Of a stretch of DNA of 64,000 nt, positions 5,236-58,354 are shown in pieces. The position numbers and the translations under genes are program-made. The notes under the pieces are model-generated. The model was not told the DNA's origin and made no database searches. It saw only the letters and a program-made list of their open reading frames with translations. The DNA comes from Comamonas sp. lk (GTDB lineage: Bacteria; Pseudomonadota; Gammaproteobacteria; Burkholderiales; Burkholderiaceae_C), in NCBI RefSeq assembly GCF_900564145.1, contig NZ_UOOB01000002.1, positions 310,001 to 374,000 on the forward strand, in the 5' to 3' direction. Numbering within the stretch: the first letter of the stretch is position 1; each line of letters starts with the position of its first letter.

Positions 5236-6393
5236 TCAGGCCGCGACTTCAGCCTCTGCCTTGGCACCCGCCATCACGCGGCGCTGCTTGACGGCCTGCG
5301 ACAGCTCTTGCAGCGTCGCCAGCGAATCCTCCCAGTTCAGGCAGGCATCGGTGATGCTCTGGCCATAGGTCAGCGCCGCCACATCGTCCTTGCCGGGAGT
5401 GAACTTCTGGGCGCCGCCAACGATGTGGCCTTCAATCATCACGCCGAACACGCTGTTGGAGCCGCTGGCAATCTGGCCGGCGATATCGCGGGCCACGTCC
5501 TTCTGACGCTCATGCTGCTTGGAGCTGTTGGCATGGCTGCAATCCACCATCAGCGTTGGATTCAGGCCTGCAGCCTCCAGATCCTTGCAGGCAGCGGCCA
5601 CATGGCCGGCATCGTAGTTGGGGGTCTTGCCGCCGCGCAAAATCACGTGGCAGTCCTGATTGCCGCCGGTGTGCACGATGGCGACCTGGCCATTCTTGTG
5701 CACCGACAGGAAGTGGTGACCACGGCTGGCCGACTGGATGGCGTCGGTGGCGATACGGATATTGCCGTCGGTGCCGTTCTTGAAGCCTATGGGCGCGGAA
5801 ATGCCGGAGGCCAGCTCGCGGTGCACCTGGCTTTCGGTCGTACGCGCGCCAATCGCACCCCAGCTGATCAGATCGCCTATGTACTGGGGCGAGATCACGT
5901 CCAGGAATTCACTGGCTGCAGGCACGCCCATGCGGTTGATGTCGATCAGCAACTGGCGGGCAATACGCAGACCTTCGTCGATGCGGTAGCTTTGATCCAG
6001 GTAGGGATCGTTGATCAGGCCCTTCCAGCCCACGGTGGTACGGGGCTTCTCGAAGTACACGCGCATCACCACCTCCAGCGTGTCCTTGTATTGCTCGCGC
6101 ACGGCTGCCAGACGGCGGGCGTAATCCAGAGCGGCCGCCGTATCGTGAATCGAGCAGGGACCGATGATGACCAGCAGGCGGTCGTCCTTGGCATTCATGA
6201 TGTTGTGAATGCTGCGGCGCGTGTCGCTGATCAGCGATTCCACGGGCGTGCCACAGATGGGGAAGAAGCGAATAAGGTGCTCTGGAGGGGGCAACACGGT
6301 AATGTCCTTGATACGTGCGTCATCGGTCTGGCCTGTTTTGGGAGAACCGTTGCGATACCAGGAATCGGCGGTGGATGCGTTCAGAGCAGTCAT
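5236..6393 (-). CDS. aroG: 3-deoxy-7-phosphoheptulonate (DAHP) synthase, class I
   Basis: A 385-residue class I alpha DAHP synthase, which condenses PEP and erythrose 4-phosphate in the first step of aromatic amino acid synthesis. Family segments include LLVIIGPCSIHD, VVMRVYFEKPRTTVGWKGLINDP, GARTTESQVHRELASG, HVILRGG and DCSHANSSK. About 30 N-terminal residues precede the barrel, as is usual for feedback-regulated enzymes. Which aromatic amino acid inhibits it cannot be read from the sequence. The 5' region carries an attenuator with a Tyr/Phe/Trp-rich leader peptide, so transcription probably responds to the charging of all three aromatic tRNAs. The gene is not in an operon with other aro genes. 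Confidence 0.96.
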   Translation of the reverse strand: MTALNASTADSWYRNGSPKTGQTDDARIKDITVLPPPEHLIRFFPICGTPVESLISDTRRSIHNIMNAKDDRLLVIIGPCSIHDTAAALDYARRLAAVREQYKDTLEVVMRVYFEKPRTTVGWKGLINDPYLDQSYRIDEGLRIARQLLIDINRMGVPAASEFLDVISPQYIGDLISWGAIGARTTESQVHRELASGISAPIGFKNGTDGNIRIATDAIQSASRGHHFLSVHKNGQVAIVHTGGNQDCHVILRGGKTPNYDAGHVAAACKDLEAAGLNPTLMVDCSHANSSKQHERQKDVARDIAGQIASGSNSVFGVMIEGHIVGGAQKFTPGKDDVAALTYGQSITDACLNWEDSLATLQELSQAVKQRRVMAGAKAEAEVAA

Positions 6394-6452
6394 TGCAAGC
6401 TTTCGTGAGGTCGTTGATCGATGTAAACCGGGAGCGCTAAAACGTAGGGGTG

Positions 6453-6487
6453 AAAAAAAACCGCCGGGCTTTACAGCTTCGGCGGTT
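6453..6487 (-). terminator. Attenuator terminator in the aroG leader
   Basis: On the minus strand, AACCGCCG, loop of 13 bases, CGGCGGTT, then a run of eight T residues in total. It lies 60 bp upstream of the aroG start and about 30 bp after the leader peptide stop, the typical attenuator position. The 5' arm (CCGCC, 6481-6485) can instead pair with GGCGG inside the leader peptide codons (6530-6534). Confidence 0.9.
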
Positions 6488-6534
6488 CTTTGGGAGGTTT
6501 GTTTGCAGGTGCGCGCGCTTACCTCTCAGCCGCC
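6481..6534 (-). promoter_or_regulatory. Antiterminator pairing of the aroG attenuator
   Basis: Two nested pairings are visible on the minus strand: GGCGG (6534-6530) with CCGCC (6485-6481), and inside it GAGGT (6525-6521) with ACCTC (6498-6494). Forming this helix sequesters the 5' arm of the terminator. A ribosome stalled on the aromatic codons (6543-6563) would leave the left arm free; a ribosome reaching the stop codon would cover it. This switching model is inferred from known pheA/trp-type attenuators; the base pairs themselves are in the sequence. Confidence 0.75.
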
Positions 6535-6581
6535 GGGGGCGAGAACCAAAAGTAAAAGTAATAGGCGCGTTGCGTTTGCAT
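6519..6581 (-). CDS. Aromatic leader peptide of the aroG attenuator (20 residues)
   Basis: An ATG-initiated 20-codon frame ending in TAA that encodes MQTQRA-YYFYFWF-SPPAAER. Codons 7-13 are Tyr-Tyr-Phe-Tyr-Phe-Trp-Phe, seven aromatic residues in a row covering all three aromatic amino acids. The ribosome site is weak (GAAAG about 3 bp upstream). The position, length, clustered regulatory codons and the following terminator/antiterminator pair are those of an attenuation leader such as pheL or trpL, here in front of DAHP synthase. The peptide itself is expected to have no function beyond being translated. Confidence 0.9.
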   Translation of the reverse strand: MQTQRAYYFYFWFSPPAAER

Positions 6582-6715
6582 GTCTTTCAATGTAGCACAG
6601 GCTTTGCGCACTGCAACATAGCGCTAGAACGCACAGGTAGGCATCCGACCTGGGAAAGCGAGCCCTTCAGAGGGGAACACCACAGTGCACACAATCAATA
6701 ATATTGCTTTATTTA

Positions 6716-6736
6716 CATTTTTATTGAATAAAAATG
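6716..6736. promoter_or_regulatory. AT-rich perfect palindrome downstream of the 6866-7477 gene
   Basis: CATTTTTATT, one central base, AATAAAAATG: 10-bp arms with a 1-bp centre, inside an AT-rich island in GC-rich DNA. It lies 130 bp after the stop of the minus-strand hypothetical gene and 135 bp upstream of the aroG leader peptide. It could be an operator or part of the aroG promoter region. It is a poor terminator because the stem has almost no GC. Confidence 0.3.
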
Positions 6737-6865: not shown

Positions 6866-7477
6866 CTAGCGAAATGCACCCGAGAGCCATTGGTGGCAGC
6901 GCTGCAGCAGCCCCCTGACAAGCGACGGCGATTCTTCGACCCCATAGGGCAGCAAGTCATCCTCTGCATCGCAAAAGTTCATGCCTTGCACAAACATGTC
7001 CATCACGATGGCAGCCTCGCCCAACAGCGTCCAGCCCAGCTGCTCACACTGGCGAAAACAGGCAGATTCCTGCCCGTCATTCAAAAGCACGGCCTGTTGC
7101 CAGGTCTGAACCGCGCCATGAAAGTGACCCACCAGATGCCGGTAGGACACGAATTCACGCAAGCTGCGCCAGTCCGCTCCCAAAGTGTCAAGAAAAGCTT
7201 GATGCTGCTGTGCGACCCGCCGCAAAGCCTGGGCTTGCTCTTTCACGGCCACACGAGACGCACCTTGGCGGCGCAGGCAGATAGCGCCTTCCAGCGCATT
7301 GGACAGATGGGAGAGCTGCTCACGCATGGGCTGCAGATCGGCCTGCAGTACATCGTTGAGCCATAGCCGCCCCATTGAGCTATCCGAGCCCCTGGCTCGC
7401 CAGTGCGTAGGCCGGCTCAACATCAGCATCACCGATGTAGACAGGCTGGACGGCGAAGGACCGGATAGTTGGGACAT
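6866..7477 (-). CDS. Hypothetical protein, about 203 residues
   Basis: Not recognised. The frame is open well upstream of 7477; I chose the ATG giving MSQLSGPSPSS, but ribosome sites are weak, and starts near residue 17-19 (MLML) or 29 (MGRLW) are possible. The protein is mainly helical, with amphipathic segments (DLQPMREQLSHLSNALEGAICLR, VKEQAQALRRVAQQHQAFLD) and aromatic-rich patches (YRHLVGHFHGAVQTWQQ). There is no signal peptide or clear membrane segment. The opposite strand is also open, but its product has the His/Gln-rich look of an antisense artefact. It lies between tldD and aroG on the same strand. Confidence 0.55.
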   Translation of the reverse strand: MSQLSGPSPSSLSTSVMLMLSRPTHWRARGSDSSMGRLWLNDVLQADLQPMREQLSHLSNALEGAICLRRQGASRVAVKEQAQALRRVAQQHQAFLDTLGADWRSLREFVSYRHLVGHFHGAVQTWQQAVLLNDGQESACFRQCEQLGWTLLGEAAIVMDMFVQGMNFCDAEDDLLPYGVEESPSLVRGLLQRCHQWLSGAFR

Positions 7478-7648
7478 GGAAATGGGGGAAAACTCTGCAG
7501 ACAAGCGATGCCGCAAAGGTAACCGATTGTTAGCACGTTGTGAGCACCGGATTACCCGGGGGGGCCCTATCATTCATAGGCTAACAGGTCGACGCAAGCC
7601 GCAATCCTGACTGAAAAGGGCAGGCTCGCTGCCCTTTCAGGCTGCGGC

Positions 7649-19025: not shown

Positions 19026-19058
19026 AAAAAAGCCGTGGCCCAGACCACGGCTTTTTTT
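19026..19058. terminator. Bidirectional terminator after the MFS gene
   Basis: AAAAAAGCCGTGG, loop CCCAGA, CCACGGCTTTTTTT. It lies 17 bp after the MFS stop and 23 bp after the stop of the convergent RcnB-like gene; the A- and T-runs serve both strands. Confidence 0.95.
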
Positions 19059-57980: not shown

Positions 57981-57992
57981 AACTTGTCAAAG

Positions 57993-58354
57993 TGTGAAGT
58001 GCGCCGATAAGCCGGATTCTGTGCACAGCGGTTGCCCGCTGCGTGACCGCCATTAATCTGGGCCGTCAGTCGCCTGACGGCTCGGTGCTACCTACCCGCA
58101 CACTCCGGGGGCCCCGTCAACGTGTGCCTACTTGGTATTGCTGCGCGTAGAGATTGCCCGTTTCACCCCCGGTGGTCTACCTTGCGGCACTCCCCCGGGA
58201 CTCGTCTCTGTTGCTCTGATCCTCACCTCACGGTGGACAGCTGTTAGCTGCTACGCTGCCCTGTGCAGTCCGGACGTTCCTCCAGTACGGTCTTTCGACC
58301 CAACGCAAGCGTTGGCCTTACGGCTTGTACCAGCGACGGTCTGGCGCACTTCAC
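57993..58354 (-). ncRNA. rnpB: RNase P RNA (class A)
   Basis: On the minus strand the conserved core GAGGAACGTCCGGACTGCACAGGGCAG, the GTGAGGTGAGGATCAGAGCAACAGA region, the GTAGACCACCGGGGGTGAAACGG region and the 3' ACAGAATCCGGCTTATCGGCGC are all present. The ends pair as helix P1 (GAAGTGCGCC with GGCGCACTTC), giving about 362 nt. It is the catalytic RNA that matures tRNA 5' ends. A -10 box GATAAT (58367-58362) lies about 8 bp before the 5' end, inside the end of the AraC gene. Exact ends are approximate. Confidence 0.96.

Follow-up and report, generated by a model that had tools for sequence, protein, structure and literature searches.

A very probable attenuator with aromatic control codons, probably leaderless in Comamonas and its close relatives, precedes the DAHP synthase gene aroG in many Burkholderiales

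Attenuation of transcription by a translating ribosome is textbook knowledge for trp and pheA. In the enterobacterial leaders trpL and pheL, control codons in segment 1 are followed by the alternative pairings 1:2, 2:3 and 3:4 and by a terminator with a U-run, and each leader reads one regulatory amino acid and governs genes of an end branch. Leaders whose codons cover more than one end product of a branching pathway are known from the ilvGMEDA and thr operons of E. coli, where the products are the branched-chain amino acids or Thr and Ile. At DAHP synthase, the original study of an attenuator is said to be that of Neshat et al. (2014) on aroR-aroF of C. glutamicum. According to the accessible portions of two accounts of that system, the aroR leader contains Phe-Tyr-Phe, lies before the DAHP synthase gene aroF and responds to Phe and not to Tyr (PMC11802643, PMC4046766). 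Leaderless attenuator leaders, which start at or beside the leader ATG, are described in the available text for trpL of S. meliloti (PMC7298713) and for several cases in Streptomyces lividans (PMC8079986), and TyrR and TrpR are stated in the part of PMC5343134 at hand to be conserved in gammaproteobacteria and absent from other classes. A survey of Actinobacteria, as far as its accessible text goes, reports that phenylalanine and tyrosine operons lack conserved upstream RNA structures (PMC1262725). In the open-licence literature, a scope outside which most subscription papers lie, we found no report of attenuation at aroG in Burkholderiales; the available portions of PMC2965389, PMC1262725 and PMC11878033 contain none, and aroG goes unmentioned in the accessible main texts of transcriptome papers on B. 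cenocepacia (two) and C. metallidurans.

The locus described here lies in the window, by which we mean the whole 64-kb stretch of Comamonas sp. lk DNA that was analysed. On its minus strand, aroG (5236..6393) encodes a class I DAHP synthase of 385 aa, which matches PF00793 (305 bits) and TIGR00034 (533 bits) above both cut-offs and scores 548.1 bits against the NCBI AroG-specific model NF006723, under the cut-off of 568 for that model. Before this biosynthetic gene, on the same strand, stands a short ORF in which codons for the pathway's end products are clustered: the leader MQTQRAYYFYFWFSPPAAER with its stop (6519..6581) has 20 codons, from the ATG at 6581 to the TAA at 6521-6519, and its codons 7-13 (6543..6563) read Tyr-Tyr-Phe-Tyr-Phe-Trp-Phe. 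Between the leader ORF and aroG lies an intrinsic terminator, AACCGCCG...CGGCGGTT followed by T8 (segments 3:4, 6453..6487, minus strand; T8 at 6460-6453), with a predicted hairpin energy of -17.9 kcal/mol. A preliminary description of this DNA had reported a 20-codon leader with seven consecutive aromatic codons and a terminator with eight T about 30 nt past the leader stop; re-reading the sequence reproduces the former exactly and the latter is present. The consensus scan missed this terminator because it limits loops to 8 bases and the actual loop is longer. In six frames, no other run of at least six aromatic codons occurs in the 64 kb. A run of five, Phe-Phe-Tyr-Phe-Tyr, is found in a single frame on the plus strand at 19052.

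The locus resembles aroR-aroF in placing aromatic leader codons before a DAHP synthase gene and in the mode of action that we propose, in which stalling raises transcription, as it does there. It differs in that C. glutamicum belongs to another phylum and has Phe-Tyr-Phe only, with Phe limitation counting and Tyr limitation not, as the accessible accounts have it, whereas the leaders of the window and its close relatives mostly carry six to eight aromatic codons and usually include Trp, and leaders occur in 14 families of the order samples. Drawn from published descriptions, the kinship with aroR would be a likeness of function only. The segment-1 control codons, the 1:2, 2:3 and 3:4 layout and the U-run terminator are shared with pheL and trpL; in contrast to those leaders, the control codons are mixed and the gene encodes the common first step. 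With ilvGMEDA and thr the locus shares a leader for several products, but the amino acids, the gene and the lineage are different.

The leader is conserved throughout the closest relatives. Our near set consists of the window and the best 80 of 247 aroG-relative loci, mostly from Comamonadaceae to judge by record titles, in a collection with one genome per species; one locus with 20 nt of upstream DNA (L054) was not assessable and was left out, giving 79 relatives and the window, or 80 sequences. The preliminary description had named conservation among relatives as a check on its reading, and the leader frame, a short ORF with at least five aromatic codons in eight before aroG, is indeed kept in the window and in every one of the 79 relatives that could be assessed, ending in each case shortly before a T-run. 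Two members of this set, L075 (a MAG in a record titled Akkermansia muciniphila) and L017 (Pantoea sp. 18069), have a Comamonadaceae-type aroG and leader, and their names seem wrong or their bins contaminated.

Within the leader ORF lies GGCGG (segment 2, 6530..6534), the 5' arm of an antiterminator that pairs with CCGCC (segment 3, 6481..6485), an element that is invariant in alignment A1 and belongs also to the 5' arm of the terminator. Antiterminator and terminator share this arm and are mutually exclusive, as the sequence, the reading frames and the energies all indicate. A second antiterminator helix can form between GAGGT (6521..6525) and ACCTC (6494..6498; 55.9% of alignment cells paired), and both pairings are possible as the preliminary description wrote them. 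With a selection pattern that required CCGCC and GGCGG-T(n) and only preferred the leader GGCGG, and with L092 excluded for its broken T-run, the leader GGCGG is exact in 108 of 111 sequences, the other three having entered through a one-mismatch fallback. Among 69 non-redundant representatives it stands in frame 0 in 37 cases, in frame 2 in 28 and in frame 1 in 4, and is read accordingly, for instance as Gly-Gly, as Ala-Ala/Glu/Asp/Val or as Arg-Arg. Since the motif occurs in all three frames, conservation of the peptide cannot account for it, while RNA pairing can.

Covariation, which the preliminary description had put forward as a check on both helices, is seen at one terminator pair and not in the antiterminator. 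At the sixth terminator pair (alignment columns 192-208), 49 of the 69 representatives have G-C and 16 have A-U, and none of 500 shuffles produced as many two-sided changes; this pair is the only one of eight pairs to vary on both sides, the others being all but invariant and hence without covariation signal. The antiterminator pair that matches it is C-G in 32, U-A in 11, U-G in 3 and unpaired in 23. For the antiterminator as a whole, in the MAFFT alignment, the number of paired cells was reached by 39 of 500 shuffles and the covariation score by 64 of 500, possibly owing to the invariance of the core and to a second helix that falls out of register. The cognate duplex of the second helix is better than non-cognate ones in the near set (P = 3.6e-5) and not better in the wider set defined below (P = 0.28), both values being without correction for phylogeny. 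The nested antiterminator claimed earlier stands for GGCGG/CCGCC, by its exact arms, three frames and energies, whereas GAGGT/ACCTC is favoured in the near set and unsupported in the wider one.

A further structure, absent from the preliminary description, is a 1:2 hairpin (6523..6552, minus strand) in which the last control codons pair with GGCGGCTGAGAGG. In the predicted minimum free energy structure the ribosome-free leader folds in this way and hides GGCGG and GAGAGG, which suggests a putative protector or pause hairpin. Cognate 1:2 pairing in the 69 representatives was equalled by 5 of 2000 permutations, with a Wilcoxon P of 0.047 (without phylogeny correction), and no single subset was significant (0.26, 0.75 and 0.07); we consider the protector hairpin likely to exist on these models. 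A stall simulation for the window, which assumes a ribosome footprint extending 12 nt past the A-site, leaves all five arm pairs available at codons 7-12, three at codon 13 and none from codon 14 onward. As long as the far arm of the terminator is unmade, the antiterminator intermediate for stalls at codons 7-12 has an energy of -21.1 to -22.6 kcal/mol, against that of the terminator hairpin alone given above; in the full-length RNA the terminator fold is best for every stall position. Since the terminator wins once its far arm has been made, antitermination must be kinetic. Among the representatives, 61 of 69 have their last aromatic codon 11-15 nt ahead of the arm. The distance from the start of the arm to the stop codon is at least 21 nt in 27 of the 69, and masking of the arm by a ribosome at the stop would be incomplete there.

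Upstream of the leader we found a promoter that abuts its ATG, an element that is new in this analysis and that the preliminary description lacked. An extended -10, TGC-TACATT (6589..6597, minus strand, from the T at 6597 to the last T at 6589), ends 7 nt before the ATG, a spacing from which the transcription start is predicted at 6581..6583, 0-2 nt before the ATG. In all 80 near sequences the distance from the end of TAnnnT to the leader ATG is 6 nt (9 sequences), 7 nt (46) or 8 nt (25), and TG stands one base before TAnnnT in every one. In four of them (L024, L026, L029 and L032) the first of two in-frame ATGs was chosen because a -10 precedes it; if the last is taken instead, the spacing holds in 76 of 80. 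Across the near set the -35 region shows no match above that of shuffled DNA, and for want of a good -35 the consensus scan listed no promoter before the leader. A Shine-Dalgarno-like motif precedes the leader in none of the 80 near sequences, compared with 12% of random windows, and precedes aroG itself in 37 of 80 (with the start placed at the start of the match). The extended -10 at 6-8 nt together with the missing Shine-Dalgarno motif indicates that the leader mRNA is probably leaderless in the near set, its start being predicted from sequence. In this the leaders resemble those of S. meliloti and S. lividans, which, in the available text, belong to other classes or phyla, concern other amino acids and have starts taken from RNA data, whereas ours are predicted. 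In the wider samples, the families whose leaders show a spacing of 6-9 nt are f4 (9/10), f9 (8/12), f11 (1/1), f12 (4/4), f22 (12/12), f39 (1/1) and f43 (4/7), and TAnnnT at this distance was found in no leader of f3 (0/3), f7 (0/13), f10 (0/9), f19 (0/8), f29 (0/1) or f31 (0/6). Most leaders of these last six families also have no Shine-Dalgarno-like motif. Such a motif precedes 8 of 72 second-sample leaders; four of these belong to f4, where it stands beside a -10 at 6-8 nt, and f4 may for that reason not be leaderless.

Taken together, conservation, position, geometry and a competing arm that is kept independently of reading frame strongly support the attenuator of aroG that the preliminary description had proposed, and we conclude that the element very probably is a ribosome-mediated transcription attenuator that controls aroG from the extended -10 promoter, with a leader that is probably leaderless. 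Transcription would begin from this promoter, at the leader AUG or no more than about 2 nt from it, and the leader peptide would probably be translated from a leaderless mRNA. When charged tRNA-Phe, tRNA-Tyr and tRNA-Trp are ample, the ribosome would reach the stop codon and cover GGCGG and GAGAGG; with GGCGG covered, CCGCC would pair with the GGCGG of the terminator's far arm, RNA polymerase would halt in the U-run and the transcript would measure about 129 nt. If one of the aromatic aminoacyl-tRNAs runs short, we infer that the ribosome would stall on codons 7-12 and in part on codon 13, in which case the free GGCGG could pair with CCGCC and aroG would be transcribed in the cell. If the leader is not translated at all, the 1:2 hairpin would sequester GGCGG and termination would be favoured.

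Beyond the near set the element is widespread in the order. An aroG homologue is present in 126 of 160 sampled Burkholderiales genomes, and the order-sample reading comprised 28 loci new to the counts (one being the second DAHP synthase of the window genome) and 80 fetched regions, in which 35 of 108 loci have at least five aromatic codons in eight upstream. The wider set consists of 32 of these 35, with L133, L188 and L189 set aside for want of a matching terminator; the start of L171 was shifted by one codon manually. In the 80 fetched regions, which were taken from in front of more distantly related DAHP synthase genes, include a few second copies and in one case comprise 279 nt only, at least six aromatic codons in eight occur on the coding strand in 14 and on the opposite strand in none. 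A covariance model, R1, built from the 69 representatives gave a single strong full-length match in the window genome (1.1e-26) and 21 further weak ones (best 0.0035), all but one of which start at model position 63 or later and span the terminator side only. Across the order, with an E-value limit of 1e-5, R1 finds a single match in each of 109 of 399 genomes, a count that may be low since the R1 filters were the stricter ones. Thirty-seven matches fall in genomes already searched for aroG, many of them part of R1's own alignment, and every one is located 28-149 nt upstream of the aroG match. By tblastn, 70 of the remaining 72 stand before aroG, and at least five aromatic codons in eight are present in 66 of those 70; four of the 72 repeat earlier sequences (three in the R1 alignment), so that the independent part is 68, of which 66 precede aroG. 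Overall, 107 of 109 matches lie just before aroG, and the two that do not are the two weakest. In a sample of the class, 77 of 104 genomes had a match and one of 28 newly read loci has a leader. This locus, L204, lies outside the order in the same class and carries FYRWYYF with the same GGCGG/CCGCC/GGCGG switch before aroG, which may reflect either transfer or deep inheritance. Genome G149 has two DAHP synthase genes (L087, L113), of which the copy nearer to Comamonas (76% identity) has at most four aromatic codons in eight upstream and the other has an aromatic leader.

Elsewhere in the window genome, the second DAHP synthase gene (L002) has at most two aromatic codons in eight upstream, and no leader was found near the starts of trpE (L296) and pheA (L297) at thresholds (at least three Trp or six aromatic codons in eight) that would miss weaker leaders. 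One short ORF rich in Trp is located some 1 kb upstream of trpE. In the whole window, Rfam 15 at gathering score yields RNase P alone (class A RNA gene, 57992-58352, minus strand), and the leader region matches no family. A permissive Rfam search of 6380-6720 returned P9, ohsC and CRISPR-DR22, sub-threshold matches to unrelated families that we take as chance.

If the attenuator is accepted, the question is which tRNAs it reads. In the near set, every one of the 80 leaders contains Phe and Tyr and 74 contain Trp, and it is plausible that the leader reads all three aromatic tRNAs. In 98 wider leaders from 14 families in two order samples (L295 excluded from the family counts of residue use), all 98 contain Phe, 93 contain Tyr, 44 contain Trp and 43 contain the three together. 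Trp varies by lineage, being present in 12 of 12 leaders of f22, 3 of 3 of f3 and 0 of 8 of f19, on a constant switch, so that mixed sensing, if real, would be a lineage trait. One reading is that a single leaderless leader acts as an OR gate for the three aromatic tRNAs in the role of TyrR/TrpR, with Trp sensing gained and lost by lineage while GGCGG/CCGCC/GGCGG stays fixed and its frame drifts, in Comamonadaceae and some other families; we give it a little less than an even chance. The same attenuator might instead be read mainly through Phe, together with Tyr, the other aromatic codons being minor. The preponderance of Phe in the wider leaders and in the codon totals of the 69 representatives (302 Phe, 129 Tyr and 59 Trp) points this way, as does the C. 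glutamicum leader, which in the accessible text of PMC11802643 responded to Phe and not to Tyr. Against it stand the near-universal Tyr and Trp of the near set and the placement of Trp, since 47 of the 58 Trp codons counted sit 14-18 nt before the arm and the Trp codon of the window is, in the simulation, the last whose stall leaves the arm wholly free. We regard a mainly Phe-read attenuator as a tentative alternative, clearly below even probability though substantial.

Three further explanations are less likely. The terminated leader RNA and the leaderless layout resemble rnTrpL, whose 5' end coincides with the trpL ATG in the available text of PMC7298713, and the leader might similarly yield a functional small peptide, as peTrpL, or a trans-acting RNA, with attenuation possibly in addition; the length and both ends of the peptide vary, however, and 107 of 109 R1 matches are tied to aroG, and we think this unlikely. 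In the manner of TnaC, the nascent peptide might itself arrest the ribosome in response to a small molecule, rather than to a lack of charged tRNA. The aromatic-rich product, with YFWF in 64 of 80 near leaders, would suit such an arrest, but in the wider samples positions outside the aromatic class are free, aromatic residues interchange and the peptide end varies with the frame, making peptide arrest very improbable. The least credible account takes the hairpin for an ordinary terminator serving the upstream gene, the ORF before it being there by chance. A hairpin with T8 does exist; the upstream ORF (6866-7573, minus strand, 235 aa, without Pfam or NCBIfam match) nevertheless ends at 6866 and is followed, in the consensus scan, by its own terminator-like site (6841-6823). 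The leader recurs in all assessable near relatives and has no counterpart run elsewhere in the window, a conservation that already contradicts this account and leaves it a negligible probability.

The attenuator of aroG is very probably genuine, and the element is widespread in the order. The preliminary description had called such a leader unusual compared with TyrR/TrpR control, which fits the class-level distribution in the accessible part of PMC5343134; attenuation of DAHP synthase itself is already known in C. glutamicum, and the claim of interest is the proposed sensing of three tRNAs. The analysis yields an RNA element that can be searched for and that corresponds to no Rfam 15 family at threshold, and the promoter abutting the AUG, if the leader is leaderless, would offer a model of attenuation in which ribosomes load directly onto a leaderless mRNA. 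Codon variation over 14 families on the same switch provides a series for testing how many tRNAs a single attenuator can read and how codon position determines sensitivity. The finding suggests a route by which many members of the order may control the first committed aromatic step without TyrR/TrpR, whose absence outside gammaproteobacteria is a published statement at the level of classes, in the available text of PMC5343134, and is not derived from this genome.
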